The translations under genes were made by a program, and so were the position numbers. A model generated the notes under the pieces. That model saw nothing but the letters and a program-made list of their open reading frames with translations, was not told the DNA's origin and did not search any database. Positions 674-38,642 of a stretch of 64,000 nucleotides of DNA are shown here, in pieces. Position 1 is the stretch's first letter. Every line of letters begins with the position of its first letter. This stretch comes from Halodesulfurarchaeum sp. HSR-GB (GTDB taxonomy: Archaea; Halobacteriota; Halobacteria; Halobacteriales; Halobacteriaceae), in assembly GCF_031432215.1 (NCBI RefSeq), contig NZ_JAVKGN010000001.1:930001-994000 (forward strand). Reading direction: 5' to 3'.

Positions 674-784
674 GGGACACCGGCCCGTTCTCTCCTCTGG
701 ATTTCGCTCGTGCCGTAACCGACTGATTTCTTCGATCACTTATTGAAAAAAGCTAAGAGGGTTCCATCGCTCCGAATATGTGGT

Positions 785-2062
785 ATGGTCAGCCTTGACT
801 CCTGGGCGAACGGAGAGCACGTCGAGTTCGAAAGTCCCGAAGCGGCGGAAAAGTACAAACGAAAAGCAAAGCGGCTCAAAGACGCCGTCGTCGGTAATAC
901 TCCCGATCGAGTGCCGGTGCGGGTGCGGAGTGGGTATCTCGCCGGCCACCAGGCCGACGTGACCTTCGAGGAGATGATGTACGACGCCGAGAAGGCCGCG
1001 GCCGCCTACCGGGAGTTCCTCGAGGAGTTCGACCCGGACAACAACCACGTCACGATCGAGCCCCCGGGAAAACCGGCGGACATCCTCGACTACAACCTTT
1101 ACAACTGGCCCGGAAACGGCGTCGACGAAAATTCCGGCTTCCAGGCACTCGAAGGCGAGTACATGACGGCGGAGGACTACGACGAGTTCATCGCCAATCC
1201 GGAGTCGTGGTTCCTGAAACAGTACATGACCCGGGTCTTCGGAGAACTCGATGGCCTCGGCAAACTGCCGAATTTCTCCCTGAGCCAGGAACTCCCGATG
1301 ATCAAGCCACTGACCCTCCCCTTCGGAGATTCGGAGGTCCAACACGCACTCGAGTCGCTGATGGACGCGGGTGATGCGATGGCCGACTGGCAAGAGAAAG
1401 TCGGCGTCGTTGCCTCCGAGGCCGAGGCGAAGGGGTACCCCTCGTTCTCGGGCGGGTACTCCAAAGCGCCATTCGATACGATCGCCGACATGCTCCGTGG
1501 CACCCGCAACGCGATGATCGACATGCGAAAGCGCCCCGAGAAGATCAAGGCGGCCACCAGGGCAGTCACGCCGATGATGAAAGACCTCGGAACGTCCGGG
1601 CCGGAAGCGACCGGTTCCCCCTTCGTCCTCTTTGTCCTCCACAAGGGAGCGGATAACTTCATGTCCCAGGACGACTTCGAGGAGTTCTACTGGCCGACGC
1701 TGAAGGAGACGATGGAGGCCGTGATCGACGAGGGTTACGTGCCGCTCATGTTCGCCGAAGGGACGTACGACGCCCGACTCGAGTTCCTCGCGGAGAACCT
1801 CCCCGAGGGGCCCACGGTGTGGATTTTCGACCGCACCGACGTCCGTGAGGCCCACGAGATCCTGGGGGACACGGCTACGGTCGCGGGTGGCGTTTCGACC
1901 TCGCTCATGAAGACCGCCGAACCCGAGGCCATCCAGACCCACTGTGAGGAACTCGTCGAGGACATCGGTCGGGAGCGGTTCATCCTGACGACGAGCGCTC
2001 GAATCTACCGAACGCCGAAGGAGAACATCCACGCGATGATCGATTCGGTCAAAGAGAACTAG
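785..2062 (+). CDS. UroD-family corrinoid methyltransferase 1
   Basis: A 425-residue protein of the uroporphyrinogen decarboxylase fold. The family includes corrinoid methyltransferases (MtaA, MtbA, CmuA, aryl-ether O-demethylase MT-I) besides true heme-pathway UroD. The block H-K-G-A-D-x-F-M-S followed by F-Y-W-P, and a later F-A-E-G-x-Y block, are shared with the two paralogues at 7939 and 10086. The His-x-Cys zinc motif of MtaA is not seen at the equivalent place. The start at 785 is chosen over 743 because it aligns with the paralogue N-termini (V-S-L-D-S-W against V-S-L-E-N-W). It is the only paralogue on the plus strand. The context of corrinoid, MeTr and RACE genes argues for methyl transfer between a small methylated compound and a corrinoid protein, rather than heme synthesis. 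Confidence 0.85.
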   Translation: MVSLDSWANGEHVEFESPEAAEKYKRKAKRLKDAVVGNTPDRVPVRVRSGYLAGHQADVTFEEMMYDAEKAAAAYREFLEEFDPDNNHVTIEPPGKPADILDYNLYNWPGNGVDENSGFQALEGEYMTAEDYDEFIANPESWFLKQYMTRVFGELDGLGKLPNFSLSQELPMIKPLTLPFGDSEVQHALESLMDAGDAMADWQEKVGVVASEAEAKGYPSFSGGYSKAPFDTIADMLRGTRNAMIDMRKRPEKIKAATRAVTPMMKDLGTSGPEATGSPFVLFVLHKGADNFMSQDDFEEFYWPTLKETMEAVIDEGYVPLMFAEGTYDARLEFLAENLPEGPTVWIFDRTDVREAHEILGDTATVAGGVSTSLMKTAEPEAIQTHCEELVEDIGRERFILTTSARIYRTPKENIHAMIDSVKEN

Positions 2063-2388: not shown

Positions 2389-3045
2389 TTACGCCTCGCC
2401 CAGCCACTCCTTGGCCAGGCGAACTCCGCTGGGAGCGTCAGTTTCGTAGCCATCCGCACGTACGTAGTTTCGCACGTCGTCGGTGATCTGCCCGCCACCG
2501 ATCATGATCTTGGTACCGTCACGAAGCCCGTCCTCGTCAAACTCCTCGACCAGGCCGGCCGCTTCGAGCGCTTCGACGGTCTCCTTCATGGAGTCGAAGG
2601 CGGCGGTGAGAAAGCCACTGAGTGCGATGATATCGGGGTCGTTCTCCTCGACGGCCTCGACGAACGTCTCGATCGGCACGTCGACGCCGAGATCAACCAC
2701 GTCAAAGCCGTTGAGGTCGAACATGAAGAAGACCAGGTCCTTGCCGATGTCGTGGATGTCGTCCTTGACGGTGCCGAGGACGATCGTCCCGAGTGTCTCA
2801 CTCTCGTCCGCGTCCATCTCGTCGACGAGCAGATCGGAGATTTGATCGATGATGTCCCCGGCGTACATCAGGTCCGGGATGAAATACTCCTCCTCGTCGT
2901 ATCGGTCCCCGACGATGGCCATCCCCTTCTTCAGATCATCGAGAACGTCCATTGGATCCTCGCCAGCGTCCAACCGCTCGTTGGCCATCTCGATTGCTCG
3001 TTCCTCCTCTAGATCCGCCAGTGCTTGTACGAATTCCTCGGACAT
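2389..3045 (-). CDS. Corrinoid protein 1 (methyl carrier)
   Basis: A 218-residue two-domain corrinoid protein of the MtaC/MtbC/MttC type. The N-terminal four-helix cap domain spans about residues 1-80. The B12-binding Rossmann domain carries D96-x-H98-x-x-G101, where H98 would be the lower cobalt ligand, followed by the S-G-F-L and G-G-G-Q-I-T blocks that line the nucleotide tail. It is nearly identical to the protein at 9237-9905 apart from the last residues and scattered changes. It would carry the methyl group as methyl-Co(III) between the UroD-like enzyme and the AcsE-like methyltransferase. It is divergently transcribed from that methyltransferase over a 188-bp spacer. A TTTAA-containing TATA-like box lies about 37 bp upstream of the ATG, consistent with a very short leader. 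Confidence 0.95.
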   Translation of the reverse strand: MSEEFVQALADLEEERAIEMANERLDAGEDPMDVLDDLKKGMAIVGDRYDEEEYFIPDLMYAGDIIDQISDLLVDEMDADESETLGTIVLGTVKDDIHDIGKDLVFFMFDLNGFDVVDLGVDVPIETFVEAVEENDPDIIALSGFLTAAFDSMKETVEALEAAGLVEEFDEDGLRDGTKIMIGGGQITDDVRNYVRADGYETDAPSGVRLAKEWLGEA

Positions 3046-3233: not shown

Positions 3234-4082
3234 ATGTCACTACAAACGACAGTCGAGGGAGCAGATTCGTCGCTCACGATCGACCGGACCGACCAGGTCC
3301 GGATCATCGGCGAGCGGATCAACCCGCGCCCGGAATCCGACCTGGCGGCAGCACTCGCGAACGAGGACATGGAACCGGTCCGGGAACTCGCGATCGAACA
3401 GGTCGAGAACGGGGCCGACCTGATCGACGTGAACGTCGACGTCGATGGCGTCGACAAGGAGACCGTCCTGCCGATGGCCGTCGAGGCCGTGGCCGATGCG
3501 GTGGACGTACCGATCGTCATCGACACGAACTACGACGACGCCGAGGCCCTCGAGGCGGCCCTCCAGGTCGCCCCCGGCAAACCCGTCATCAACTCGGTGA
3601 GCATGGAGGAAGCCTCCCGTGAGGCTATTCTCCCGCTCGTCGCCGAGTACGAAACCGCCGTCGTCGGCCTCACGATGGACGAGTCCGGCCCGCCGGACGA
3701 CGCCGAGACCCGGTTCGAACTGGCCGAAGCGCTCCTCGAGGAAGTCGAAGCGTATGACATCCCCCGTGAGGACGTCATCATCGATCCGATCGCGCTGCCC
3801 CTCTCCTCGAACTCGGACATCGGGTTCGAGATCCTCACGGCGATGGAACAGATCCGGGACGAACTCGGGAACAACATCACGCTGGGGCTGAGCAACATCT
3901 CCTTCGAGATGCCCGAGCGGGAGAAGATCAACGACCTCTATCTCGCGATGGCGATCCAGTCCGGCCTGAGCGTCCCGATCGTCAACGCCGGCGAGACTCG
4001 CGAGGCGATCCTGCTCGCCGACCTGATGATGGGACGGGACAACTTCGCGAAGCGCTTTTTGGGCTACTACCGCTCGAAGTAA
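3234..4082 (+). CDS. Methyltetrahydrofolate:corrinoid methyltransferase (AcsE-like)
   Basis: A 282-residue TIM-barrel, pterin-binding enzyme of the MeTr/AcsE type. Collinear with acetogen MeTr, the blocks are I-G-E-R-I-N at residues 25-30, D-V-N-V (pterin-binding Asp), V-I-D-T-N, I-N-S-V-S, G-L-T-M-D-x-S-G-P-P, I-D-P-I-A-L-P and L-G-L-S-N-I-S with the catalytic-site Asn. The length matches the family (about 260-280). The reaction moves a methyl group between the N5 of tetrahydrofolate and corrinoid cobalt. Here it would take the group off the corrinoid protein into the folate pool for oxidation or biosynthesis. It stands alone on its strand and diverges from corrinoid gene 1. It corresponds to the MT-II component of O-demethylase systems. 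A DHPS enzyme is ruled out by the MeTr-specific blocks. Confidence 0.9.
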   Translation: MSLQTTVEGADSSLTIDRTDQVRIIGERINPRPESDLAAALANEDMEPVRELAIEQVENGADLIDVNVDVDGVDKETVLPMAVEAVADAVDVPIVIDTNYDDAEALEAALQVAPGKPVINSVSMEEASREAILPLVAEYETAVVGLTMDESGPPDDAETRFELAEALLEEVEAYDIPREDVIIDPIALPLSSNSDIGFEILTAMEQIRDELGNNITLGLSNISFEMPEREKINDLYLAMAIQSGLSVPIVNAGETREAILLADLMMGRDNFAKRFLGYYRSK

Positions 4083-5697: not shown

Positions 5698-7197
5698 ATG
5701 GTCGAATCCGACACCATCCTGATCCTCGCCATCATCGCGGCCTACCTGGCCGGGACGCTACTCATCGGCTATCTCGCCTGGCGGGTCCTCGAATCGGACG
5801 TCGGTGACCTGTTCACCGCCTCGCGAAGTCTGGGGCTCGTGGCCACGGCGATGGGGATTTTCGGGACTCAGGTAACTGCCTTCGGGATGATGGGGGCCCC
5901 GGGAGCCGCCTACGGACTCGGGTACTCCGCGTACGGGTATATCGTCGGAATGGCCCAGTTCATGGCCGCTGCGGCCTTCTTCGTGATCGGTTACCGCGTG
6001 TGGCTGCTCGCCGAAGCGTTCGATCACGTCACGCCGGTGCACTTCTTCGGGGACCGATTCGAGTCCTACATGCCGCGTTTTGTCATCTCGATCGCCCAGA
6101 TCATCTACGAGATCCAGTACATCGTGATCGGCGGCATCGGGGCCGGGATCATCTTCGAAGTCGTGACCGACGGGTTCATTCCCTACTGGCTCGGCGCGTT
6201 GATCATCCTGTTCATCACGACCTGGGTGGCTTACGCCGGCGGGCAGCGGGGGAGCGCCTGGACGAACATCTTCCAGGGGGCGCTCATGCTCGCCGTGCTG
6301 GTCCCGATGATGTACATCGTCTACAACGCACTCGGTGGTGGGCAGGCCATCCTCGACCAGCTCTCCCCACAGATGATCTCGCTCGGCGGTGCGGCGGTCC
6401 AGGACCCCAAGGTCTGGATCCCGTTCAGCCTGATCGCGACGGGGATGTCAAACGGCGTCATCGCCCACGTGCTGGTCAAGAACATGTCCGCGGACAGCCC
6501 GCAGACGATCAAGCGCAACACCTACATCTACCCCGTGCTGGTCGGCGTCCTCTTCTTCATGACCATCTCGCTTGGGGTCTGGGGCAGTATCGCACTCCCC
6601 GGGCTGGAGGGCAATGCGGTCGACCGGATCCTGCCGGCGCTGGCGGAGATGTACGCCCCGACCTGGATGGTCGGCCTGATCGCCGCGGGGATCTTCGCCG
6701 CGATCATGACCTCCTGGGACGGCATGCTGCTGGCGACCTCCTCGATGTTCTCCGATGACATCATCAAGCCGATCGCCAAGATGCAGGGCTATGAGCTCTC
6801 CACGCAGTGGGAGAACCGCTTCAGCAAGTTCTTCATCCTGGTGGTGGCCGTGGTCACCTACCTGCTCGTGCTCGCCCGTCCGGACACGATCCTGGCGGTC
6901 GGCGTGTTCGCGTTCACCGGCTTTGCGACGCTGGTGCCATCCTACTTCGCCGCCCTCTACTGGAAGCGGACGACGAGCACGGGTGTGGTGGCTTCCGTCG
7001 TGATCACGACCCCGGTCGTCGCGCTCTGGGCCTTCGAGGTCCTCCCGGCCTGGACGACCTTCGGCTTCCACTACTCCGCGCCGTCGCTGCTGCTCGCGAG
7101 TGTGCTCGTGGTCGTCGTCTCACTGCTGAGTAGTCCGCCTTCGAAGGAGATCGTCGAGCAGAACTTCGAGGTCTTCGATCGGGTCTTCTACGACTAA
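5698..7197 (+). CDS. Sodium:solute symporter (SSS family)
   Basis: A 499-residue protein with about 13 transmembrane helices. The N-terminal region has the SSS-like pattern G-D-L-F-T-A-S-R-S-L-G followed by T-A-M-G-I-F-G-T-Q-V-T-A-F-G, which contributes to the sodium and substrate sites. A W-x-G-M-L-L-A-T-S-S-M stretch in helix 8 corresponds to the second conserved SSS signature. Family members take up organic acids, amino acids, proline, betaine or choline; the substrate here is unknown. It is translationally linked to the 77-residue partner upstream. Its place among corrinoid methyltransferase genes makes a methylated solute an attractive but unproven substrate. It ends convergently with the reactivation-domain gene. 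Confidence 0.9.
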   Translation: MVESDTILILAIIAAYLAGTLLIGYLAWRVLESDVGDLFTASRSLGLVATAMGIFGTQVTAFGMMGAPGAAYGLGYSAYGYIVGMAQFMAAAAFFVIGYRVWLLAEAFDHVTPVHFFGDRFESYMPRFVISIAQIIYEIQYIVIGGIGAGIIFEVVTDGFIPYWLGALIILFITTWVAYAGGQRGSAWTNIFQGALMLAVLVPMMYIVYNALGGGQAILDQLSPQMISLGGAAVQDPKVWIPFSLIATGMSNGVIAHVLVKNMSADSPQTIKRNTYIYPVLVGVLFFMTISLGVWGSIALPGLEGNAVDRILPALAEMYAPTWMVGLIAAGIFAAIMTSWDGMLLATSSMFSDDIIKPIAKMQGYELSTQWENRFSKFFILVVAVVTYLLVLARPDTILAVGVFAFTGFATLVPSYFAALYWKRTTSTGVVASVVITTPVVALWAFEVLPAWTTFGFHYSAPSLLLASVLVVVVSLLSSPPSKEIVEQNFEVFDRVFYD

Positions 7198-7215
7198 AAT
7201 TCGCTTCTTCTACTC

Positions 7216-7884
7216 TCAGGCCATCGTTTTCGCCCCGGCGTAGGGGCACTCGGCCAGAATCTCACAGTCCGCACAGGAGAGCAGAAACTCCGCCTGCTCG
7301 ATGTCGGGGCCGACGCCGATGGTGAACGTCAGGGTCTTTCGCGGTTCGGTGTAGGTCCCCTGGAGCGTACAGTCGATCTCTTCGGTCGGGAGGGCCTCGA
7401 AGACGTACTCGCGGCGCTCCAGCGGCCAGCCGTCGTCTTTCGTGCCCGGGGCGTACACCCGAGTCGTGTTCCAGCCCCGCTCGTCGGTCTCGGCCCGGAT
7501 CGCTTCGAGCATCGCCTCCCTGGCGTCCTGGAGTGCGGCGTTTTCCAGTGCGTCCCAGAGGAGCGCGTCGAACCGGGAGAGCTCGTTCGTCGCCGCGGGA
7601 TCCTCCCCGAGGGTCAACACGCCGGTTGCGAGGTGACTGGCGGAAACGAGTTCCGCCGGCGGGTCGTATCGCTCGATCACCGATTCCTGGGTCGGCTCGA
7701 TCAGGTACAGCCCTCGCGGGTCGATCGAGGCGACGACCTCCTCGCTCAACGTCTCGATTCGCGTTCGAGTGGCGGCGCCCGATTTCGCGGCGAGCCACTG
7801 GGCGAAGGGCGGCTGGGTTTCGAGCTGTTCGAGGTCGAGTTCGACGGAGATGTCCCGCACCACGACGGGCTCGCCGATTGACAT
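7216..7884 (-). CDS. MetH reactivation-domain-like protein (stand-alone)
   Basis: A 222-residue soluble protein. The block Y-A-P-G-x-x-D-D-G-W-P-L-E, then P-R-K-T-L-T-F-T-I-G-V-G, then a C-terminal Cys cluster (C-A-D-C-x5-C-P-Y) follows the order seen in small 'B12-dependent methionine synthase activation domain' proteins of anaerobic bacteria (R-Y-S-P-G-Y-x-D-W-P-L, P-K-S-x-S-x-x-x-G, C-x-x-C-x-x-x-x-C-P-Y). Those are encoded beside corrinoid methyltransferases. The start at 7884 (MSIGEP) is preferred to 7893. It is in line with the UroD2 gene and transcribed the same way, 54 bp downstream of it. A role in keeping the corrinoid protein active, or in handling the methyl-corrinoid, is inference. 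The assignment rests on recalled motif order, not on an alignment. Confidence 0.6.
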   Translation of the reverse strand: MSIGEPVVVRDISVELDLEQLETQPPFAQWLAAKSGAATRTRIETLSEEVVASIDPRGLYLIEPTQESVIERYDPPAELVSASHLATGVLTLGEDPAATNELSRFDALLWDALENAALQDAREAMLEAIRAETDERGWNTTRVYAPGTKDDGWPLERREYVFEALPTEEIDCTLQGTYTEPRKTLTFTIGVGPDIEQAEFLLSCADCEILAECPYAGAKTMA

Positions 7885-7938
7885 ACGCCACATACGGGAC
7901 CGAACTGATAAAAAGGGTTCTCCCGGTTCGAAACGGCG

Positions 7939-9240
7939 CTATCGGTTCTTCGGCGCGTCCATCATCGCCTTGACGTTCTCGGGCTTTGCCTCGTCGAGGC
8001 CCACGCCCGGGGAGAGGACGAACCGGTTTCGGCCCATCCGCTCGATCAGGTCCTGGCTGTACTCGGTGACCGCTTCGGGCTCCCTGGTGTTCAGGAGTCC
8101 CGTCGAGACGTCGCCCGCGATGGTGACGTACTCGGGGAGGGTCTCCCGCACCAGTTCGAGGTCCGTGTCCTGGAAGTGCCAGATCATCTCGCCCTCGGGG
8201 AGGTCACTGATCGTCTCCAGCCGGGACGTGTAGCGGCCTTCGGCGAACAGCCAGGGCACGAGATCCGCCTCGGTCAGCGCCTCGATCACCTGGCGGAGCT
8301 GTGGCCAGTAGAACGTCTCGAACTCCTCGCCGGACATGAACCCGTCCGCGCCCTTGTGCAGCGGGATGAAGACGAAGGGGTTGTTGTTCACGTGCGCGGA
8401 GGTGATCCCCATCTCGATGGCGATGGGCACAAGCCGGTCGACAGCCTCCAGAAGCGTCTCCGGTCGGCGTTTGAGGTCCATCATGATCGCGTGGGTTCCC
8501 CGTACCATGTCACCGAGCATGTCGTAGGGCGCGAGGGTGATCCCGCCGACGGACTGGGGGTAGCCCGCGCCGACGATCTCCTCGACGGTCCCGCCGATGA
8601 GCTGTTGCCACCGCATCGCTTCCTCGCCAGCGTCGAGGAGGTTCTGCAGCGTTTCTCGCATGGGCGGCATGCCGAAGGGCAGCAGGTAGGGATGAACCCC
8701 GGCGATCCCGGCGGTCAGATTCGAGAACTGCGGGAAGTGAGCCATGCCGTCCAACTCGCCGAAGACCTCGGGCAGGTACTGTCGGATGAAGAAGTCACTC
8801 GGATCCGTGAAGAAGTCCTCGTAGTCCTCGACGCCCATGTACTCCCGCTCGCGCGCCTGGTAGACTGTCTCCGGCGAGGAGCCGTCCCCCGGCCAGTCAA
8901 AGCCCTGGTAATCGACGATCTCCAGGGCCGTCGCTGATGGGATCAGCGAGGCGGCCCAGGGAAACAGGTCCGGCTCCAGGTCGTCGACGAACGTCAGGAG
9001 CGAGTCCTGCAATTTCTCGCCCTCGTACATCGCCTCCTCGGGCGTGTACCCGGCGTGGAAGACCGGGTAGAACGTCGAGAGCAGGTTGACCGGGACCCGG
9101 TCCGGATCCGCGCCGCGGAGCGCATCGACCATGCGCTTCGCTCGCCGCTGATAGTCCGCCTTCGCGTCCTCGTCGGCAAAGTCGATTCCATCGCCACGCT
9201 GCCACGTCTCCAGGGTCGGCCCTGCCGGCTCGTCGCTCAT
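7939..9240 (-). CDS. UroD-family corrinoid methyltransferase 2
   Basis: A 433-residue UroD-fold methyltransferase paralogous to those at 785 and 10086. It shares the H-K-G-A-D-G-F-M-S...F-Y-W-P block, the W-L-F-A-E-G-R-Y block and a conserved C-terminus ending A-P-K-N-R, which is also the end of the third paralogue. The start at 9240 is set by a 4-bp ATGA overlap with the stop of corrinoid gene 2. The pair is therefore translationally coupled and very likely forms a functional methyltransferase-corrinoid unit. The MetH-activation-like gene follows downstream. It probably transfers a methyl group from a small substrate to the corrinoid protein; the substrate is unknown. Confidence 0.9.
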   Translation of the reverse strand: MSDEPAGPTLETWQRGDGIDFADEDAKADYQRRAKRMVDALRGADPDRVPVNLLSTFYPVFHAGYTPEEAMYEGEKLQDSLLTFVDDLEPDLFPWAASLIPSATALEIVDYQGFDWPGDGSSPETVYQAREREYMGVEDYEDFFTDPSDFFIRQYLPEVFGELDGMAHFPQFSNLTAGIAGVHPYLLPFGMPPMRETLQNLLDAGEEAMRWQQLIGGTVEEIVGAGYPQSVGGITLAPYDMLGDMVRGTHAIMMDLKRRPETLLEAVDRLVPIAIEMGITSAHVNNNPFVFIPLHKGADGFMSGEEFETFYWPQLRQVIEALTEADLVPWLFAEGRYTSRLETISDLPEGEMIWHFQDTDLELVRETLPEYVTIAGDVSTGLLNTREPEAVTEYSQDLIERMGRNRFVLSPGVGLDEAKPENVKAMMDAPKNR

Positions 9241-9905
9241 TGTGCGGCCTCCACCGTCTTGAGCCACTCCTTGGCCAGGCGAACTCCGCTGGGAGCGTCA
9301 GTTTCGTAGCCATCCGCACGAACGTAGTTTCGCACGTCGTCTGTGATCTGCCCGCCACCGATCATGATCTTGGTGCCGTCACGAAGTCCGTCCTCGTTGA
9401 ACGCTTCGACCAGGCCAGCCGCTTCGAGGGCCTCGACGGTCTCTTTCATGGAGTCGAAAGCGGCGGTGAGAAAGCCACTGAGCGCGATGATATCGGGGTC
9501 GTTCTCCTCGACGGCCTCGACGAACGTCTCGATCGGCACGTCGACGCCGAGATCGATGACCTCGAAGCCGTTGAGGTCGAACATGAAGAAGACCAGGTCC
9601 TTGCCGATGTCGTGGATGTCGTCCTTGACGGTGCCAAGCACGATGGTCCCGAGCTTTTCACCGTCTTCCATCTCCATCTCGTCGACGAGCAGATCGGAGA
9701 TCTGATCGATGATGTCCCCGGCGTACATCAGGTCCGGGATGAAATACTCCTCCTCGTCGTATCGGTCCCCGACGATGGCCATCCCCTTCTTCAGATCATC
9801 GAGAACGGCCATCGGAGCCTCGCCAGCATCTAACCGCTCCTTGGCCATTTCGATCGCTCGTTCCTCCTCGAGGTCCGCCAGTGCCTGTACGAATTCGTCT
9901 GACAT
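9237..9905 (-). CDS. Corrinoid protein 2 (methyl carrier)
   Basis: A 222-residue MttC/MtaC-type corrinoid protein, almost identical to corrinoid protein 1, including the D-x-H-x-x-G cobalt-ligand motif. Differences cluster at residues about 77-83, around 190 and at the extended C-terminus. The start at 9905 (MSDEF) matches the start of the paralogue; an in-frame ATG ten codons upstream would place the promoter palindrome inside the gene. It is coupled to UroD2 by an ATGA overlap. It has a strong TATA box about 38 bp upstream and a perfect palindrome between TATA and ATG, so it heads a regulated corrinoid-UroD2-activation-domain transcription unit. Confidence 0.95.
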   Translation of the reverse strand: MSDEFVQALADLEEERAIEMAKERLDAGEAPMAVLDDLKKGMAIVGDRYDEEEYFIPDLMYAGDIIDQISDLLVDEMEMEDGEKLGTIVLGTVKDDIHDIGKDLVFFMFDLNGFEVIDLGVDVPIETFVEAVEENDPDIIALSGFLTAAFDSMKETVEALEAAGLVEAFNEDGLRDGTKIMIGGGQITDDVRNYVRADGYETDAPSGVRLAKEWLKTVEAAQ

Positions 9906-9913
9906 CAGTAATC

Positions 9914-9932
9914 CAGGTGAAACATTCACCTG
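9914..9932. promoter_or_regulatory. Perfect palindrome (operator candidate) at corrinoid 2
   Basis: CAGGTGAA-ACA-TTCACCTG is a perfect 8-bp inverted repeat with a 3-base spacer. It ends 8 bp before the corrinoid 2 ATG and lies downstream of the TATA box, so it would cover the predicted transcription start. A protein bound here would block initiation. Confidence 0.6.
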
Positions 9933-9937
9933 CATTA

Positions 9938-9950
9938 GATTTATAGTTTT
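9938..9950 (-). promoter_or_regulatory. TATA box of corrinoid 2 operon
   Basis: On the minus strand AAAACTATAAATC is a near-consensus archaeal TATA element centred about 38-40 bp upstream of the ATG. That predicts a start point some 10-14 nt before the codon, inside the palindrome at 9914-9932. Confidence 0.65.
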
Positions 9951-10085
9951 GGGGAGTTGAGCGGCTCAGGCTCCCGAGAACGGCAGTTACACTTGGACAA
10001 ACACAATTGCACCGAACTGGCACAGCGGCCGACACCCGTCACCGGCACATCCCGAAAGCTCGACCGCAAAAAGGAACGTCGGTTC

Positions 10086-11381
10086 TTACCGGTTTTTCGG
10101 CGCGTCGATCATCGCCTTGACGTTCGCCGGTTCGGCCTCGTCGAGAGCGACCCCCGGGGCGAGGATGAACCCGTCCGGGCCCACGTCATCGATGAGTTCC
10201 TCACAGTACTCCGTGACCTCCTCCGGCGTCTGTGTGTTCAGCAGGGAGCTGTGGACGTTGCCGGCGATGGCCACTTGATCGCCGAGTGTCTCTTTGGCCT
10301 GGACCATGTCGGTCTGGTCGAACTGCCAGACGATATTGCCCTCTGGCTGGTCGGCGATCACGTCGAGCCGGGAGTTGTAGCCGCCCTCGGCGAACAGCCA
10401 CGGGACCAGCCCCGCGTCGAGGAGTCCCTCCATGACTTCCCGGAGCGGGCCCCAGTAGAACTCCTCGAACTCCTCGGCGGACATGAACCCGTCGGCACCT
10501 TTGTGCAGGGGCATGAAGACAAGCGGGTTGCCCGCGCCCTGGGCCGACCGAATGCCCATGTCGATCATCTTCGGGATGAGCGATTCGGTCGCTTCGAGCA
10601 GTTCGTCCGGGTTTCGCTTGAGGTCCATGGACGCGCCGTGGGTGCCACGGAGGGTGTCCGCGATCACGTCGTAGGGAGCTTTCGAGAAGCCACCGAACGA
10701 CCGGGGGTAGCCCTGCTCGATCAGTCCCACCGCCGAGCCTTCGACGGCCTCGTGCCACCGGAGCGCCTCTTCGCCGGCCTCCATCAGGGTCTCCAGTGAC
10801 TCCTGGACCTCCGGAAGTCCGAAGGACAGCGCCATCAGGTGGATGTTCGGAATCTCCACGAGGTCGGTGAACTTCGGTAGCTGGCGGAACCCCTCCAGCT
10901 CGCCGACGATCTCCGGGATGTACTCCCGGAGCCAGAAGTCAGTCGGGTCCTGGACGAAGTGCTCGTACTGGTCCGGCCCCATGTAGTCGTCTTCCAGCGC
11001 CTGGTACCCCGTCGTGGGCGAGGCGCCGTCGCCCGGCCAGGCGTAGAGCTTGTAATCGAGCATGTCGAGCATCTTCGCCGAGGGCAGCAGGGTCGCGGTG
11101 GTCTGCTGGCCGTCCGGTTCGAGGTCCGTGATCGTCTGCTCGAAGGCGTCACCCAGCGCTTCCGCGTCGTTCATCGCGGTCTCGGGGGTGATACCGGCGT
11201 GGAAGACGGGGTAGAAAGTCGCGCTCAGCACGGTCGGGATCTGATCGGGCGTCCCGCCGCGAATCGCGGTTGCGATTCGGCCGGCCCGCTCCTGATAGGC
11301 CTCGCGTGCTTTTTCGTCCACGAAGTCGATGCCAACGCCCTGTTCCCAGTTCTCGAGGGATACGTCCATTTCGTCTGTCAT
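10086..11381 (-). CDS. UroD-family corrinoid methyltransferase 3
   Basis: A 431-residue UroD-fold methyltransferase, the third paralogue. It has the H-K-G-A-D-G-F-M-S-A-E-E-F-E-E-F-Y-W block, L-F-A-E-G-G-Y, and I-A-G-N-V-H-S-S-L-L (C-I-S-G-N-V-P in bacterial relatives). The C-terminus E-P-A-N-V-K-A-M-I-D-A-P-K-N-R is shared with paralogue 2. It has its own TATA box and a leader of roughly 80 nt with an inverted repeat, unlike most haloarchaeal genes. It lies downstream of the RACE gene on the same strand. An alternative start is four codons downstream (MDVSL). The different sequence of each paralogue suggests different methyl donors or one MT-I plus alternative MT-II roles; this cannot be settled here. 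Confidence 0.9.
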   Translation of the reverse strand: MTDEMDVSLENWEQGVGIDFVDEKAREAYQERAGRIATAIRGGTPDQIPTVLSATFYPVFHAGITPETAMNDAEALGDAFEQTITDLEPDGQQTTATLLPSAKMLDMLDYKLYAWPGDGASPTTGYQALEDDYMGPDQYEHFVQDPTDFWLREYIPEIVGELEGFRQLPKFTDLVEIPNIHLMALSFGLPEVQESLETLMEAGEEALRWHEAVEGSAVGLIEQGYPRSFGGFSKAPYDVIADTLRGTHGASMDLKRNPDELLEATESLIPKMIDMGIRSAQGAGNPLVFMPLHKGADGFMSAEEFEEFYWGPLREVMEGLLDAGLVPWLFAEGGYNSRLDVIADQPEGNIVWQFDQTDMVQAKETLGDQVAIAGNVHSSLLNTQTPEEVTEYCEELIDDVGPDGFILAPGVALDEAEPANVKAMIDAPKNR

Positions 11382-11420
11382 GTGTTAGTTGTGTTGGGTG
11401 TTCCGTCGTTCGGTCGGTGG

Positions 11421-11449
11421 CCAATCGCCGGGGGTGACCGGGCGATTGG
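11421..11449. promoter_or_regulatory. Inverted repeat in leader of UroD3
   Basis: CCAATCGCC and GGCGATTGG form a perfect 9-bp inverted repeat separated by 11 bases, 40-68 bp upstream of the UroD3 ATG and downstream of its TATA box. It would sit in the transcribed leader, where it could act as an RNA hairpin or a regulator site. Confidence 0.5.
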
Positions 11450-11485
11450 ATCCGTTCTCCCAATCAGATGTTCGATTGAAACGTA

Positions 11486-11496
11486 CTTATAATTTT
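11486..11496 (-). promoter_or_regulatory. TATA box of UroD3
   Basis: Minus-strand AAAATTATAAG, just 9 bp past the RACE stop codon and about 105-110 bp before the UroD3 ATG. It implies an unusually long leader for a haloarchaeon and separate expression of UroD3 from RACE. Confidence 0.55.
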
Positions 11497-11505
11497 GTAG
11501 TGATC

Positions 11506-13428
11506 TCACAACGCATCCTCGGCCCCACGGGTGGCCTCGACGCGGTCTTTGACCCAGGGATACCGATCGTAGTCCCGGTGTGGGAGATACATCGACTGGG
11601 CGAAGGCGTCGTGGAAGCCGTCCCAGGCTGCCAGTTCGACGTAGGAGACTTCCTCGACGATCCGCTCGGCTTCGGTCTTTGCATCGTCGTTGAGCAGTGC
11701 GTACATCGCGCCGTATCCCGCCGCGTTGCCCAGGAACTCCACGTCCCCGGCCCCGACCTCGGGGTACAGGCCCAGCAGCTTCGCGGACTCCGGATCGATG
11801 TAGTTCCCGAACCCGCCGGCCATGATCAGCTTGTCGACTGTCTCGATCTCGGCCGCCTCGAGCAGGACCGAGATGCCGGTCTGGATCGCGGCCTTCGCGT
11901 TCTGGATGTCCCGAATGTCCCCCTGGGTGACCACGATGGCCTCCTCGATGTCCGCCTCGTCGGTGCCGAAGAGGACGAACTCTCGACTCCCGTCCTCGGT
12001 GTCCCGGACCCGGCCGTGTCCCTCCTCGGGGTCGACCAGTCGTCCGCGGCGATTGATCGCCCCGACGAGGAATAGCTGGGCGACGATGTCGATGATCCCC
12101 GAGCCACAGATCCCGATCGGGGTCCCGTCATCGATGATATCGAGTTCGGGCTCCCAGGTATCGGGATCCAGCGTGACCGCCTGGATGGCCCCCGGTTTCG
12201 CTCGCACGCCGTGGGCGATCTCGGCCCCTTCGAGTGCCGGGCCCGCCGGTGCGGACGCCACGTAGGTCTCCTCCGGCCCCGAGACGGCGATCTCGCCGTT
12301 GGTCCCGATGTCGATCACGATGGCAGTCTCGTCGCTGTCGAGCACGTCGGAGACCAAAAGGTCCGCGACGAAGTCCGGCCCGACCCAGCCACCGATGATG
12401 GGCAGCCAGGACACCATTGCCCCGGGGTTCGTTTCGAGGTCGAGTTCCCGGGCTTTCGTCTGGAGGATGGCCTGGTTGGCCGGGACGTACGGATTGGCCG
12501 CGACCGGGCCCGCGTCGATGCCCAGGAAGAGGTGATGCATCGCCGTGTTGCCCACGAAGACCGCCTCGTAGATCTCGTCCTGTTCGATCCCCGCCTCGGC
12601 GACGACCTCCTCGATGCTGTCGTTGATCCCGCCGATGATCTCGTCCTGGAGTTCGGTTTTTCCTTCCGGCGATCGCGTGCTGTGTTGCACCCGGCTGATG
12701 ATATCGCCGCCGTGGCTGCTCTGGGGGTTGAGCTTGGAGCTAACGGCGACCACCTCCCCGGTCCGCAGGTCCAGGAGGTAGATCGCCAGCGTGGTCGTCC
12801 CGATATCGATCGCGAGGCCGTACGCGGGCCCGACTCGCCCGGGGTCGATCCCCAGCACCTCGGACTCCTGGAAGACCGTCGCGGTCGCCCGCAGGTCGCC
12901 GTCGTCGGTCTCCCCCTCGCGGATCGCCGTCGGGAGTGTCGTCAGCGCGAGCCGGTCGATCACTTCGGCTTCGACCCCGTATTCCGATTCGAGGGCCCCA
13001 AGCACTCGCTCGCGGTCCGGGAGCGTATCCTCCAGGGTCGGGGCCGGGAATTCGAGCTGATAGCGGCGGATCGCCGGCGCGTGCTCGAAGTCGATCTCCC
13101 GCCCTTCGGTCATCACGATCTCCCCCTCGCTGCGCGAGGATGCGGGCACGAACACCGAGACGTCCTCGGTCACCTCGGCCCGACACCCCAGCCGATAGCC
13201 GGCCTCGAGCTGGTCGGCGTCGAGGAGGTTTCGCTCGTCGTCATCGACTGGCGAGACGGCATCCGGGTCTTCGACCTGGACCATGCAGGTGCCACAGAGC
13301 CCGTTGCCGCCACAGAGTGCCTCGATACCGACGTTCCCTCGTTCCGCCGCGTCCAGAATCGTCTCGCCGGCCGCGGCCTCAACATCGACGTCCCAGGGGC
13401 CAAACGAGACCGTTAGATCACGCTCCAT
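11506..13428 (-). CDS. RACE protein: ATP-dependent reductive activator of corrinoid proteins (RamA/MtvD-type)
   Basis: A 640-residue activator. It has an N-terminal 2Fe-2S ferredoxin domain (C-x5-C-x2-C at L-C-G-G-N-G-L-C-G-T-C, with a fourth Cys about 35 residues on). A middle linker follows, then a large ASKHA ATPase domain with D-I-G-T-T-T, D-I-G-T-N-G-E and G-x-G-G-F-G-N phosphate-binding blocks. RACE proteins reduce adventitiously oxidised Co(II) corrinoid to Co(I) at the cost of ATP. The start at 13428 (MERDLT) is preferred; 13434 is also possible, and 13515 would add a tail absent from relatives. It is the only RACE gene here, so it must serve both corrinoid proteins. With UroD-type MT-I, the corrinoid proteins and MeTr it completes a four-component O-demethylase-like set. 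Confidence 0.93.
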   Translation of the reverse strand: MERDLTVSFGPWDVDVEAAAGETILDAAERGNVGIEALCGGNGLCGTCMVQVEDPDAVSPVDDDERNLLDADQLEAGYRLGCRAEVTEDVSVFVPASSRSEGEIVMTEGREIDFEHAPAIRRYQLEFPAPTLEDTLPDRERVLGALESEYGVEAEVIDRLALTTLPTAIREGETDDGDLRATATVFQESEVLGIDPGRVGPAYGLAIDIGTTTLAIYLLDLRTGEVVAVSSKLNPQSSHGGDIISRVQHSTRSPEGKTELQDEIIGGINDSIEEVVAEAGIEQDEIYEAVFVGNTAMHHLFLGIDAGPVAANPYVPANQAILQTKARELDLETNPGAMVSWLPIIGGWVGPDFVADLLVSDVLDSDETAIVIDIGTNGEIAVSGPEETYVASAPAGPALEGAEIAHGVRAKPGAIQAVTLDPDTWEPELDIIDDGTPIGICGSGIIDIVAQLFLVGAINRRGRLVDPEEGHGRVRDTEDGSREFVLFGTDEADIEEAIVVTQGDIRDIQNAKAAIQTGISVLLEAAEIETVDKLIMAGGFGNYIDPESAKLLGLYPEVGAGDVEFLGNAAGYGAMYALLNDDAKTEAERIVEEVSYVELAAWDGFHDAFAQSMYLPHRDYDRYPWVKDRVEATRGAEDAL

Positions 13429-13546
13429 CAGCATCCGTTTGGGCGAAACCGCTAATAGGTTTTGTGATGGTTTTACTAGACGGACAATACTGTCGACCAC
13501 CGGCATGGCTGCCAACCGTTATCTTCCCGGGGCTCGAGCATCCGGT

Positions 13547-13984
13547 ATGCAACCGGTCACGTACCAGCCGATCGGCGTCGTCGAGTCGCCGTTCGAGGCC
13601 CCCGAAGACGTGCCCCGTCCCGGGGCCGAACAGGTCGAGGCCTCCGGACGCATCCTTCTGGATGAGTCGTACGAACCCGGACTTCAGGGCCTCGCTGCGT
13701 TCTCTCACATCGTGGTGCTCGCCCACCTCCACGAGGTGACTGACACGCGACTCACGGTCCGCCCGATGGGTGGTGATCCGGTGGGTATCTTCGCGACGTC
13801 GGGCCCGCCGCGACCGAATCCCATCGGCCAGTCGGTCCTCCGGCTGGACGGGATCGAGGGGACCCGGCTCTCTGTCTCGAACCTCGATCTGATCGACGGG
13901 ACGCCGGTGCTCGACATCAAGCCTTACGCCCCGAAAGGCCCCGGAATCGACGAGATCGAGATCGGCTGGATGGCCGATCTCTGA
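13547..13984 (+). CDS. trmO: TrmO/TsaA-family tRNA (t6A37) N6-methyltransferase
   Basis: A 145-residue single-domain TsaA/TrmO protein. Family blocks present are P-I-G-V-V-E-S-P-F near the N-terminus, then F-S-H-I-V-V-L-A-H-L-H, the S-G-P-P-R-P-N-P-I-G-Q-S-V signature, and D-G-T-P-V-L-D-I-K-P-Y. It uses S-adenosylmethionine to methylate t6A at position 37 of threonine tRNAs. Archaeal members consist of this domain alone. The start at 13547 immediately precedes Q-P-V-T-Y. It is divergent from RACE over 118 bp. A link to the corrinoid genes is not implied. Confidence 0.85.
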   Translation: MQPVTYQPIGVVESPFEAPEDVPRPGAEQVEASGRILLDESYEPGLQGLAAFSHIVVLAHLHEVTDTRLTVRPMGGDPVGIFATSGPPRPNPIGQSVLRLDGIEGTRLSVSNLDLIDGTPVLDIKPYAPKGPGIDEIEIGWMADL

Positions 13985-14077
13985 TTGAGCGTCGAACTTT
14001 GCGTGACCTGCCCAACACTGTAATAACGTCCGTCCCGAACCAGCATCTATTCACCCGATGCGCGGCTATCGGGGGCT

Positions 14078-14452
14078 ATGGCCGAAGAACCAACGGAAGC
14101 GGCGGTCGAGGCGGCGGTCGATGAGGTTACGCACCCGGAGATCGACGCGACACTGACCCAGCTCGGGATGATCAACGGGATCGAGATGGAGGGGGAGACG
14201 GCGACGGTGACTCTCGCGCTCCCGATGCTCAACATCCCCGACCAGGTCAAGAACATTCTGGTGGGACGGCTTCGCGAGGCCGTCGAGGGGGTCGGTGCGG
14301 AGTTCGAGTCCGAAATCGCCGTAATGACCGACGCGCAGCGCGAGCAGTTCTTCCAGCTGGAGCAGCAGAACTGGTCCGGCGGCATCGACGGCGTCGACGG
14401 GCCCGAGGGCGAAGCCGACGCCGATGACGATACCGCCGACCCGCCGTTTTGA
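14078..14452 (+). CDS. DUF59/MIP18-family Fe-S assembly-type protein
   Basis: A 124-residue protein. About 85 residues resemble DUF59/MIP18: the V-T-H-P-E-I-D start corresponds to Y-D-P-E-I of the family, then helices with I-P-D-Q-V-K. An acidic tail with D-x-D-D-D-T follows. The family helps target Fe-S clusters or acts with Mrp/ApbC carriers. The invariant Cys of typical DUF59 proteins is not seen (L-P-M-L-N-I instead of M-G-C-P), so it is a divergent member. A second, typical DUF59 protein is at 48526. Confidence 0.55.
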   Translation: MAEEPTEAAVEAAVDEVTHPEIDATLTQLGMINGIEMEGETATVTLALPMLNIPDQVKNILVGRLREAVEGVGAEFESEIAVMTDAQREQFFQLEQQNWSGGIDGVDGPEGEADADDDTADPPF

Positions 14453-14500
14453 ACGGCCGGCCGACCATCAAGGTAATAGGCACTAATCACGTTTCTCAGG

Positions 14501-15106
14501 ATGAACATGAACGCGGATCCACACGGTGGCGACGGGGCGGACGAGGCCCGACTCCGCGCCGACGGCGGCTCGAAGATGCCGGGTGTCCCGAGCGGCGAGG
14601 CGGAGAGCCAGTCCGAACCAGACTCGAAATCGGCGTCGAGTTCGGGCGCCCAGATGCCGGGGGTTCCAGACAGCAAGGGCCCGGAACCGGCCGCCAAGGC
14701 AAACGAGGGCAACACCTGTGGGGCGCCAACCGAGGACGCCGAGGACGACGTGACCCACGGTCTCACGACGGCCTTTACGCTCAACGCGCTCGCCAGCACC
14801 GCCGATCCAGCAGCGGTCGTCGACGACGCCCGGAACTGGTCGGACTGGGTTGGGGTCGTCGGGACGGTCGACTCGCCGACGATGAACACTTTCCTCCGGC
14901 GCAACGGCGTCGACATCGACTTCTTCAACGGGGCCAACGGACCGGCCGAGCGTCTGGCACGGGTCGCCCAGTCCGGCTCGACCTTCCACTCCGATCGACT
15001 GGTGCTCGTTGGGGTGCCCGGCGAGGAGGGCTTTGCCCCCGAGGATGGCTGGGAGTTCGAACCGCTGGAACCGACCGCCGAAGAGGCCGGCTGGGAGCTG
15101 CAGTAG
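14501..15106 (+). CDS. Haloarchaeal protein of unknown function with disordered N-terminus
   Basis: A 201-residue protein. Residues 1-85 are polar and low complexity, with two K/Q-M-P-G-V-P motifs about 25 residues apart and a single N-T-C-G. Residues 85-200 form an acidic alpha/beta-like domain (L-T-T-A-F-T-L-N-A-L, W-V-G-V-V-G, L-V-L-V-G-V-P). I do not recognise the family beyond small haloarchaeal DUFs. It follows the DUF59-like gene by 48 bp on the same strand. Confidence 0.7.
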   Translation: MNMNADPHGGDGADEARLRADGGSKMPGVPSGEAESQSEPDSKSASSSGAQMPGVPDSKGPEPAAKANEGNTCGAPTEDAEDDVTHGLTTAFTLNALASTADPAAVVDDARNWSDWVGVVGTVDSPTMNTFLRRNGVDIDFFNGANGPAERLARVAQSGSTFHSDRLVLVGVPGEEGFAPEDGWEFEPLEPTAEEAGWELQ

Positions 15107-15408
15107 CTCGCACACGTCTCGACAGGGCGTACTGCAGCCCTGAAGACGAGTTCCAGATTCGCGACCGGCGGCCAGGTTCTGTTTGGGTAACCCAAAATCG
15201 GGTTCATTCGGGCCTCGTGGTCGCACTGGTTTGTGGGCAACCTGGTGACCGACGGTGCCCAGTAACTGACGCATTTTCAACTGGTTTTGCAGATTAAAAC
15301 GATCGCCTTACTAACTGTTCCTGCTGCCCCTACGTCAGTGGGTTTGGTCGCGCCGTCGGGGCGGGCCGAGAGACAATTTCTTTACGTGCGGACTTCCATG
15401 GTTTTAGT
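15107..15408. promoter_or_regulatory. IclR upstream region with perfect 15-bp palindrome
   Basis: Non-coding stretch of 302 bp. TTTGGGTAACCCAAA at 15182-15196 is a perfect palindrome (7-1-7) and is followed by a second short repeat, AACCC/GGGTT. No gene is seen in this stretch. The palindrome lies about 215 bp before the IclR ATG. A related but imperfect sequence (TTTCGGATAACCAAA, 16306-16320) follows the IclR gene, before the molybdoenzyme operon. Confidence 0.5.
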
Positions 15409-16272
15409 ATGTCCAAACCCATCCCGCCCCGGTCGGCCGATCCGGAATCGGGCTATCGGGTCCCCGATCGGACCCCGCCCGAAGAGCCGACGAACCCGGT
15501 GCAGTCCGCCAGTCGGACGATGGAGCTGATCGAGGTACTCAAGGAGTCCGGTGGAGCCACGATCGGCGAGATCGCGACGGAACTGGATGTTTCGAAGGGG
15601 ACCGCCTCGAACTACGTGAGCACGCTTCGGGAGGAGGGGTTCGTGACGAAACTGGAGACCGGCGAGTTCGATATCGGGCTCCGGGTGCTTGACGTCTGTA
15701 ACAAGTCCATCCGCGAGCGAGAGCTGTTTACCGAAGGGAAACCCAAGATCGACGCCCTCGCCGAGGAGTTCGAGGGCGTCTTCACCGTAATGGTCCCCGA
15801 ACACGGCTATGGCTACTGTCTGTACTCCCGGACGACCTCGGATCTCATCTCGAAGAACCGGCTCGCCCAGGGGACCCGGCGATACCTCCACTGTAACGGC
15901 CCCGGACTCTCGATTCTCTCGGGTATGGAAACCGAAACCGTCGAGGACATCGTCGACCGGTACGGGCTGCTCTCCTGTGATACCGGCTGTGAGTTCGATT
16001 GCCCGCTCGCGAAGTACGCCCGCGAGCTCCCGGTCGAACGGGAGAGCCTCTACGATCGACTGGCGGCCATCGACGAGCAGGGATTTGCCGTAACCGACCA
16101 CGGACAGATCGCCTGTCTCGGGGTGCCGATCTTCGGTAGCGGCGATACCGTTGTGGGATCGGTCGGCGTGCTGGCCCCGCGACGGACGATTTACACGGAG
16201 CAGGCGGCCGATCCCGAACTCATCTCGGCCATGAAGGACGCGGCGACGGCCATCGGGATCAATATAGTGTAA
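15409..16272 (+). CDS. IclR-family transcriptional regulator
   Basis: A 287-residue regulator. The N-terminal winged helix-turn-helix at about residues 30-95 contains I-G-E-I-A-T-E-L-D-V-S-K-G-T-A-S-N-Y. The C-terminal IclR effector (GAF-like) domain spans about residues 110-287. The effector domain has an unusual Cys cluster, L-L-S-C-D-T-G-C-E-F-D-C-P, which could bind a metal or sense redox. It is followed 202 bp downstream by the Psr-like operon on the same strand and preceded by the palindrome at 15182. Control of the operon, of itself or of the nearby methyltransferase genes is plausible. Confidence 0.9.
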   Translation: MSKPIPPRSADPESGYRVPDRTPPEEPTNPVQSASRTMELIEVLKESGGATIGEIATELDVSKGTASNYVSTLREEGFVTKLETGEFDIGLRVLDVCNKSIRERELFTEGKPKIDALAEEFEGVFTVMVPEHGYGYCLYSRTTSDLISKNRLAQGTRRYLHCNGPGLSILSGMETETVEDIVDRYGLLSCDTGCEFDCPLAKYARELPVERESLYDRLAAIDEQGFAVTDHGQIACLGVPIFGSGDTVVGSVGVLAPRRTIYTEQAADPELISAMKDAATAIGINIV

Positions 16273-37183: not shown

Positions 37184-37220
37184 TCCCAGGTTACATACTC
37201 GCTCACTGCGAGTCCGAAAC

Positions 37221-38642
37221 GTGACCGAACGCCTCTCGCCGTCGGCCCGAGAATCGATTCACGAGGCGGTCCTCGACGTGCTCGCCACCGCCGGAATGCG
37301 GGTCGAACACGCGGCGGCCCGTGAGACACTGATCGCGGCCGGGGGGACCGCAGACGGTGACGTGGTCACCCTCCCGCCGGCAGTCGTCCGCGAGTCGCTC
37401 GAATCCGCGCCCAGCAGCTTCGACTGGCGTGCCCGGGATCCGGACAAGAGCGTGACGGTGGGCGAGGGCGACCCGGTGATCACGCCCACCCGCGGCCCGC
37501 GATACGTCAAACGCCCCGGTGAACCCCGCCATCGGGCTACGATGGACGATTTCGAGCGCCTGGCGGAACTCGTCCATATGGAACCGACCATCGACGTGGC
37601 GGGCTATGACCTCTGTAGCCCCGAGGGCTACTCGCTACCCGGCAATCCGGGCGGGTTCGATCAGGCCGAGGTGGGCTATGAACTACTCGAAACGCTCTTT
37701 CTCTCGACCGACAAGCCGATCGTCGCGACCGCCCGGAGCGGGCCCGAGGCGGCGGCGTCCCTCGAAACGGCCCGCACGGCATTCGGGGAGGCAGAACTCT
37801 CCGAACACGTCGTCCTGGGGATCCTCCACGCCCGGTCACCCCGGGTCTTCAACGAGCCGATGGTCGAGGGGCTGATTCGCTTCGCCCGGGCTGGGCAACC
37901 GCTGGTCGTCGCTTCGGGAGCGATTCCGGGGGCCTCAGCACCGCACTCGCTCTCCGAAGCGGCGGTGCAGGTGATCGCCGAGACGGTCTTCGGCGCGGTC
38001 CTGGTTCAGCAACTCAACCCCGGCACGCCGGTGGTGCTGGGCCGCTCCGGAACGATCTACGACCCACAGGCCGACGCGGTGGCTGCCGGGAGCCCTCGCG
38101 GCGCGATCCTGCAGGATGTCGTGGTCGAAATGGCCGACTTCTATGCCTTCCCCAGTCGGGGCAGCGGCGCGGGGACCGACGCCAAAGCGATCGACTATCG
38201 GAGTGGGGCCGAGTCGACCGCACACCTCACCCAGGCACTCGATTCGGGCGCGGACCTCCTGTTGAACGCCACCGGCGGCCTCGACACCTACGCCACCGTC
38301 TCCCCCGAGAAGACGGTCCTCGACGCCGAGCGGATCAGGGCCCTCCGTCAGGGGGCCACGGACGGGAACGCACTCCTGGCGGCCGTCGAGTCGGGCCCCT
38401 CGATCGAGACGATCCGGAACTCGGAGCCGGGCACTCCGTTTTTCGACGACCGGGATCCAGCAACGCTGGCCGACGCCACGACCTTCGAGGCGACGATCGG
38501 TGATCGGGGCGACTTCGAGTCCTGGGCGGCGGCCGGATCGCCGACGCTCACGGAGCGAGCGACCGAGCGGGTCGAGACCCTCCTTGGGACCTACGAGCGG
38601 CCACCGATCGACCCCGAAATCGAGGCGGCCCTGGAGGGCTAA
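37221..38642 (+). CDS. MttB-family (COG5598) methyltransferase, non-pyrrolysine
   Basis: A 473-residue TIM-barrel methyltransferase of the trimethylamine methyltransferase family. The frame has no internal TAG, so it is a member without pyrrolysine. Blocks present are V-L-A-T-A-G-M-R-V near the N-terminus, P-T-R-G-P-R-Y-V near the start of the barrel, and P-G-A-S-A-P-H-S-L-S-E-A-A, then G-S-G-A-G-T-D-A-K-A. Characterised non-Pyl members demethylate glycine betaine, proline betaine, carnitine or related quaternary amines onto a corrinoid protein. A GTG start is chosen; no better codon is near. Cobalamin transport genes follow convergently, overlapping by 4 bp. The corrinoid partner could be one of the two at 2.4 and 9.2 kb. 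Confidence 0.88.
   Translation: MTERLSPSARESIHEAVLDVLATAGMRVEHAAARETLIAAGGTADGDVVTLPPAVVRESLESAPSSFDWRARDPDKSVTVGEGDPVITPTRGPRYVKRPGEPRHRATMDDFERLAELVHMEPTIDVAGYDLCSPEGYSLPGNPGGFDQAEVGYELLETLFLSTDKPIVATARSGPEAAASLETARTAFGEAELSEHVVLGILHARSPRVFNEPMVEGLIRFARAGQPLVVASGAIPGASAPHSLSEAAVQVIAETVFGAVLVQQLNPGTPVVLGRSGTIYDPQADAVAAGSPRGAILQDVVVEMADFYAFPSRGSGAGTDAKAIDYRSGAESTAHLTQALDSGADLLLNATGGLDTYATVSPEKTVLDAERIRALRQGATDGNALLAAVESGPSIETIRNSEPGTPFFDDRDPATLADATTFEATIGDRGDFESWAAAGSPTLTERATERVETLLGTYERPPIDPEIEAALEG

Follow-up and report, generated by a model that had tools for sequence, protein, structure and literature searches.

A stand-alone MetH-reactivation-domain-like protein with a C-terminal cysteine triplet, encoded in a predicted haloarchaeal corrinoid methyl-transfer gene cluster

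The 64,000-nucleotide stretch of DNA analyzed here (the window) encodes, between positions 743 and 13515, the four component types of an O-demethylase-type system, namely, methyltransferase I, corrinoid protein, methyltransferase II, and activating enzyme. Pfam searches identified three URO-D-type methyltransferases (PF01208), the first at 743..2062 on the plus strand and the second and third on the minus strand at 7939..9237 (E value of 6e-18) and 10086..11381. Two corrinoid proteins are encoded on the minus strand, at 2389..3045 and at 9237..9935 (PF02607 and PF02310 for the latter), and a pterin-binding, MtrH/AcsE-like methyltransferase lies at 3234..4082 on the plus strand (PF00809; Pfam and NCBIfam). 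A member of the RACE family of ATP-dependent corrinoid reductive activases, found at 11506..13515 on the minus strand, combines a [2Fe-2S] Fer2 domain with RACo linker, middle, and ASKHA domains (PF00111, PF17650, PF17651, and PF14574); it also matched the AcsV-like NCBIfam model NF040756, below the cut-off of that model. Judged by these domain assignments, the gene content of the locus is that of an O-demethylase-like cluster for corrinoid methyl transfer. The subject of this study, P0001, is encoded at 7216..7884 on the minus strand, downstream of corrinoid protein 2 (9935..9237) and URO-D-type methyltransferase 2 (9237..7939), all in the same direction, as a sequence-only reading of this DNA had described.

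Two further gene groups in this genome were noted. An MttB homologue (PF06253; E value of 4.6e-84) at 37218-38636 on the plus strand, away from the main cluster, is directly followed by an apparent ABC importer pair at 38639-41040, recognized by eye. Outside the window, at about 875 to 885 kb of contig C1 (L059, positions 6697-15913), a third corrinoid protein of a different subtype is encoded beside genes named by eye as a BCCT-type transporter, an aldehyde ferredoxin oxidoreductase-like protein, a dimethylglycine dehydrogenase-like protein, and ETF; this gene set looks like a betaine demethylation module.

The open reading frame of P0001, as read from the window, spans 7216..7893 on the minus strand and encodes 225 residues from the ATG at 7893 or 222 residues from the ATG at 7884. 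In a second genome of the same genus, the upstream ATG reads AGG and the ATG at 7884 is conserved; the start at 7884, chosen earlier from the sequence alone, is therefore the better choice. The protein contains the motifs YAPGTKDDGWPLE, PRKTLTFTIG, and CADCEILAECPY, exactly as that reading had quoted them. Since a 97%-identical copy is present in the same-genus genome and three relatives with 35 to 39% identity occur in two genomes of another genus of the same order, P0001 is more than an open frame, and a chance occurrence of its motifs was rejected. An A/T-rich box at about 7905-7920 on the minus strand, roughly 30 bases ahead of the ATG at 7884, is mostly retained in the same-genus genome and could be an archaeal promoter candidate for the P0001 gene alone.

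Taken singly, P0001 had no match in Pfam, NCBIfam, or the PDB sequences at E values up to 10, and a direct search with PF02965, the MetH activation domain family, found no match in its own genome. Searches with family profiles were informative. A profile built from nine family proteins and compared with 177,635 PDB sequences, again at E values up to 10, had as its sole match 1J6R (E value of 3.4e-8), the structure of TM0269 from Thermotoga maritima. With an 11-protein profile, the E value of 1J6R was 1.4e-9, followed by a next match at 0.48 and by Escherichia coli MetH at 0.74; 1J6R was still at the top (7.1e-4) when the two most divergent members were left out of the profile. Individual relatives matched PF02965 over profile positions 105 to 245, L070 with an E value of 3.3e-6 and 27.2 bits, above the cut-off of 25, and L071 with 3.9e-5 and 23.7 bits, just under it. 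Among the stand-alone proteins scanned with PF02965, the Pfam cut-off was exceeded only by L070 and by L093, the latter of which has no Cys triplet. The family profile also detected a true MetH activation domain (L091 of genome G781; E value of 4.0e-5). An hhalign comparison of an eight-member family alignment with E. coli MetH gave a probability of 5% and was uninformative.

Structure prediction led to the same fold. The AlphaFold model of P0001 itself, computed from three sequences, was too poor to use (pLDDT, 36.8), and the comparison was therefore carried by a template-free model, itself of modest quality (pLDDT, 53.4; pTM, 0.56), of L030, a "Candidatus Methanohalarchaeum" relative that is 33% identical to P0001. 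Foldseek placed 1J6R at rank 1 for this model (E value of 1.7e-4; probability, 1.00), with MetH reactivation domains at ranks 2 to 6. VIA-align superposed 182 residues of 1J6R at 3.7 Å with a Z score of 11.3, and its ranks 1 to 11 were filled by MetH reactivation domains throughout; the highest-ranked unrelated entry had a Z score of 6.8. The sequence-only reading had proposed a structural comparison with the MetH activation domain as a check, and a match was obtained with a relative in place of P0001. Sequence profiles and the L030 model agree independently on the MetH reactivation fold, and it is close to certain, by way of the family profile and the model of a relative, that P0001 has this fold. 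At the level of fold, then, the earlier identification of a MetH reactivation-like domain was right.

The family has a narrow distribution in Halobacteria. Matches were found in 17 of 391 genomes, of which 4 genomes (5 matches) reached an E value of 1.4e-42 or better; the other 13 gave weak partial matches (2e-4 to 9e-3), chiefly in reading frames that differed in length, and these were regarded as chance similarity. Relatives outside Halobacteria include two in "Candidatus Methanohalarchaeum thermophilum" and single members in a Bipolaricaulota bacterium from Great Salt Lake and in an archaeal MttB operon (G431). A later profile matched 17 of 100 Bipolaricaulota genomes, among which the match in G781 is a true MetH and that in G746 a fragment. 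No relatives of P0001 were found in the plasmid and viral collections searched.

Strong PF02607 corrinoid proteins are present in five of the 391 Halobacteria genomes, a count that sets aside as weak two of seven matching genomes, G161 and G175 (22.5 to 23.7 bits). All four family-bearing Halobacteria fall within these five, corresponding to two genera within three of 86. Corrinoid proteins, 11 MttB matches, and RACE are also present in the fifth, G371, in which no family member was found, even by profile; the family is therefore not needed by every corrinoid system. The sequence-only reading had named the occurrence of the family in genomes without corrinoid methyltransferases as evidence against its assignment. 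Among the nine genomes tested of the 23 with a family match, PF02607 and MttB were found in all nine and RACE in eight, the exception being a draft assembly with short contigs.

The neighborhoods of the relatives are mixed. In the window, in G006, and in G431 and G748, as well as for one copy each in G317 and HMET1, the gene lies near corrinoid or RACE genes. The G317 cluster largely corresponds to that of the window, with RACE, two URO-Ds, an MFS gene, a pterin methyltransferase, a corrinoid protein, DUF1638, and the P0001 relative. The HMET1 copy is about 6 kb from apparent URO-D and corrinoid genes, and the relatives in G431 (L029) and G748 (L070) adjoin RACE. In G359, and for the remaining copies in G317 and HMET1, every PF02607 gene lies at a great distance. 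At the Bipolaricaulota loci of the Cys-bearing class described below, for which flanks of 1.5 kb or less were covered, RACE was found in the immediate flanks of 1 of 16 and a corrinoid gene in 0 of 16, the sole corrinoid match being the MetH control itself. Folate genes accompany some of these members (FTCD_C in L084 and FolD in L089). Collectively, these data show a genomic association of the family with corrinoid methyl transfer.

Several observations arose beside these loci. In L089 (positions 437-2931), the three-Cys protein is encoded between FolD and a gene with a homocysteine S-methyltransferase domain, directly upstream of the latter. This arrangement, which raises the possibility that core MetH, too, is served by the class, recalls TM0268/TM0269, TM0269 reportedly being a neighbor of MetH. 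In the G317 cluster, the DUF1638 gene (PF07796; E value of 5.5e-15) directly follows the corrinoid gene (L020, positions 1657-2487); a DUF1638 protein and a RamA-like protein of Phaeobacter inhibens have been linked to B12 reactivation, the former genetically (PMC5764234). Two MttB homologues of G408 ("Candidatus Methanohalarchaeum") contain an in-frame TAG (C1:857588-859030, which also has a TAA, and C1:11058-12479), which suggests pyrrolysine in that extreme halophile.

The family differs from MetH at the AdoMet motif. According to PMC1282579, the AdoMet contacts of E. coli MetH include Asp946, Glu1101, Tyr1130, Arg1134, Tyr1139, and Tyr1189, and its RxxxGY motif runs from Arg1134 to Tyr1139. 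The equivalent loop of P0001 is the segment NTTRVYAPG (residues 142 to 150; 7444..7470, minus strand), in which the Arg is one residue further off and there is no Tyr. Neither RxxxGY nor PGY occurs in any of the 24 complete Cys-bearing proteins, P0001 included, a count that omits two fragments without the region (the second copy of G702 and G746). These proteins have RxxxPG instead in 22 of 24 cases, with the Arg likewise one residue further away than in MetH, and all 24 carry a C-terminal C-x2-C-x4-5-C, although they were retrieved with a profile that itself represented the Cys class and cluster into 13 groups at 60% identity, which makes the counts nonindependent. In P0001 this motif is C207-x2-C210-x5-C216 (7246..7275, minus strand), and its three Cys residues, conserved without exception in the 11 aligned proteins, are among only ten invariant columns across these most diverse members. 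In contrast, the four Cys-less domains of MetH type used as controls (E. coli MetH, 1J6R, MetH of G781, and the second copy of G773) all have RxxxGY, and none has the Cys triplet. At the remaining aligned positions, the Glu1097 column is variable; a Glu is present in P0001 at the 1101 column and is not kept by the Cys class, nor by 1J6R; the Tyr1189 region is gapped; and Asp946 falls outside the aligned segment. By these sequence criteria, P0001 belongs to a class without the RxxxGY AdoMet motif and with a C-terminal three-Cys motif, a pattern that, in the sequences compared, spans much divergence. MetH-style, AdoMet-dependent reactivation should thus not be assumed for P0001, because the AdoMet motif is missing. 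The Cys triplet may be a metal site, a hypothesis strengthened by the invariance of the cysteines.

Corrinoid methyltransferases stall when their cobalt is oxidized, and two routes of repair are well known, one AdoMet linked, as in MetH, and one ATP linked, as in RACE. In the ATP-driven route, corrinoid proteins that have fallen from Co(I) to Co(II) are repaired by an activating enzyme that contains a [2Fe-2S] cluster (PMC6739815). Our best reading, which we favor with some reserve, is that P0001 is an accessory of corrinoid-protein reactivation that acts beside RACE, probably does not use AdoMet methylation, and has a probable metal site. P0001 would dock on the corrinoid proteins of the cluster in their Co(II) state and help to return them to Co(I) alongside the ATP-driven RACE; we infer docking and assistance because this fold, in MetH, is positioned on the corrinoid during repair and because the gene is encoded with RACE. 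Repair would proceed without AdoMet methylation, AdoMet use of the MetH kind being unlikely given the loss of RxxxGY. The Cys triplet would probably bind a metal, possibly as an Fe-S cluster with a role in passing or gating an electron. Of the parts of this reading, a corrinoid role for P0001 is likely, its independence of AdoMet is probable, and an Fe-S cluster at the triplet is a guess that we hold somewhat below even chances. We put forward only tentatively, as a rather unlikely extension, that the three-Cys class constitutes a distinct corrinoid reactivase, built on the MetH reactivation fold, that has lost the AdoMet site and gained a metal (Fe-S) center, itself supplies Co(II) with the low-potential electron or gates its transfer, and is partnered with RACE in the service of URO-D- and MttB-type corrinoid proteins and, in places, of core MetH.

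Alternatively, P0001 could bind AdoMet as MetH and TM0269 do, the corrinoid being trapped by AdoMet methylation after one-electron reduction of Co(II). This would fit the fold held in common with 1J6R and E. coli MetH, the Arg kept by 22 of 24 members one residue from its MetH position, and the Bipolaricaulota member directly upstream of a homocysteine-methyltransferase gene, much as TM0269 lies by MetH. We nevertheless consider it improbable, as RxxxGY and PGY are lost throughout the class while RxxxGY is kept by every Cys-less domain compared, and the Glu1097 position is unconserved. In MetH, the reactivation domain makes contact with the face of the corrinoid, and P0001 might in the same manner bind base-off corrinoid protein as a loading or storage chaperone that inserts or protects the cofactor, having no redox role since RACE at the locus already supplies reduction. 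A chaperone would leave the invariant Cys triplet without a role, unless a structural zinc is bound there, and the adjacency of L029 and L070 to RACE points to reactivation instead; we regard this explanation as quite improbable. Recruitment of the fold to another role in C1 or folate metabolism, for instance as a ligand sensor or as an enzyme acting on small molecules, with incidental corrinoid neighbors, would account for the members away from corrinoid genes and for those near FTCD_C and FolD, yet it is very unlikely given that the family genomes nest exactly within the corrinoid-protein genomes among the 391 Halobacteria and that corrinoid proteins and MttB accompany the family in all nine genomes tested.

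The reading of P0001 as a reactivation accessory beside RACE gives an identity to a protein missed by every curated family model searched (Pfam and NCBIfam). A MetH repair fold that lacks the AdoMet motif and is encoded with RACE points to a repair arrangement that is mixed or of a third kind, and the reciprocal occurrence of the Cys triplet and RxxxGY replaces a vague annotation with a prediction testable on a single purified protein.

Among known systems, the closest counterpart by both profile and structure is TM0269, which like P0001 is a stand-alone protein of about 200 residues with the same fold. However, 1J6R has the RISPGY form of RxxxGY, which P0001 lacks, and its aligned region stops near residue 206 of 214, too close to the end of the protein to accommodate the Cys triplet; TM0269 serves MetH, whereas P0001 sits by URO-D and corrinoid genes. 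The MetH reactivation domain shares with P0001 the fold and a conserved Pro with the following strand near the domain end, and relatives of P0001 match its family PF02965, but it is part of a larger enzyme, binds AdoMet via RxxxGY, and has no Cys triplet. With the RACE, RamA, and RACo activases (PF14574), P0001 would have a common task, keeping corrinoid proteins at Co(I), and it is encoded in the same cluster; its sequence is nonetheless unrelated to theirs, and no ASKHA or ferredoxin/2Fe-2S domain was found in P0001 by Pfam at E values up to 10, RACE being a separate gene of the locus. In the account of type 1 mlp gene clusters by Kountz and Balskus, the Mlps have a His-Cys-Cys zinc site and an H4folate methylase is absent from the clusters described, whereas the P0001 locus encodes a pterin-binding methyltransferase.

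The stand-alone, PF02965-like proteins L029 and L070 belong to the same class as P0001, with the Cys triplet, without PGY, and adjoining RACE, although they are 19 to 23% identical to it and L029 accompanies methyltransferases of MttB type rather than URO-D type. The sequence-only reading had called the pairing of RACE with a MetH-like domain unusual; it is indeed rare in haloarchaea, but L029 and L070 show the pairing elsewhere, and the idea that the combination is itself new was rejected. In the open-licence literature searched, we recognized no description of a stand-alone domain of the three-Cys class and found no biochemistry for the class, although such absence is not proof. What is new, as far as these searches show, is the occurrence of the class in a haloarchaeal URO-D/corrinoid cluster, together with the reciprocal motif pattern that sets it apart from the MetH-type domains.
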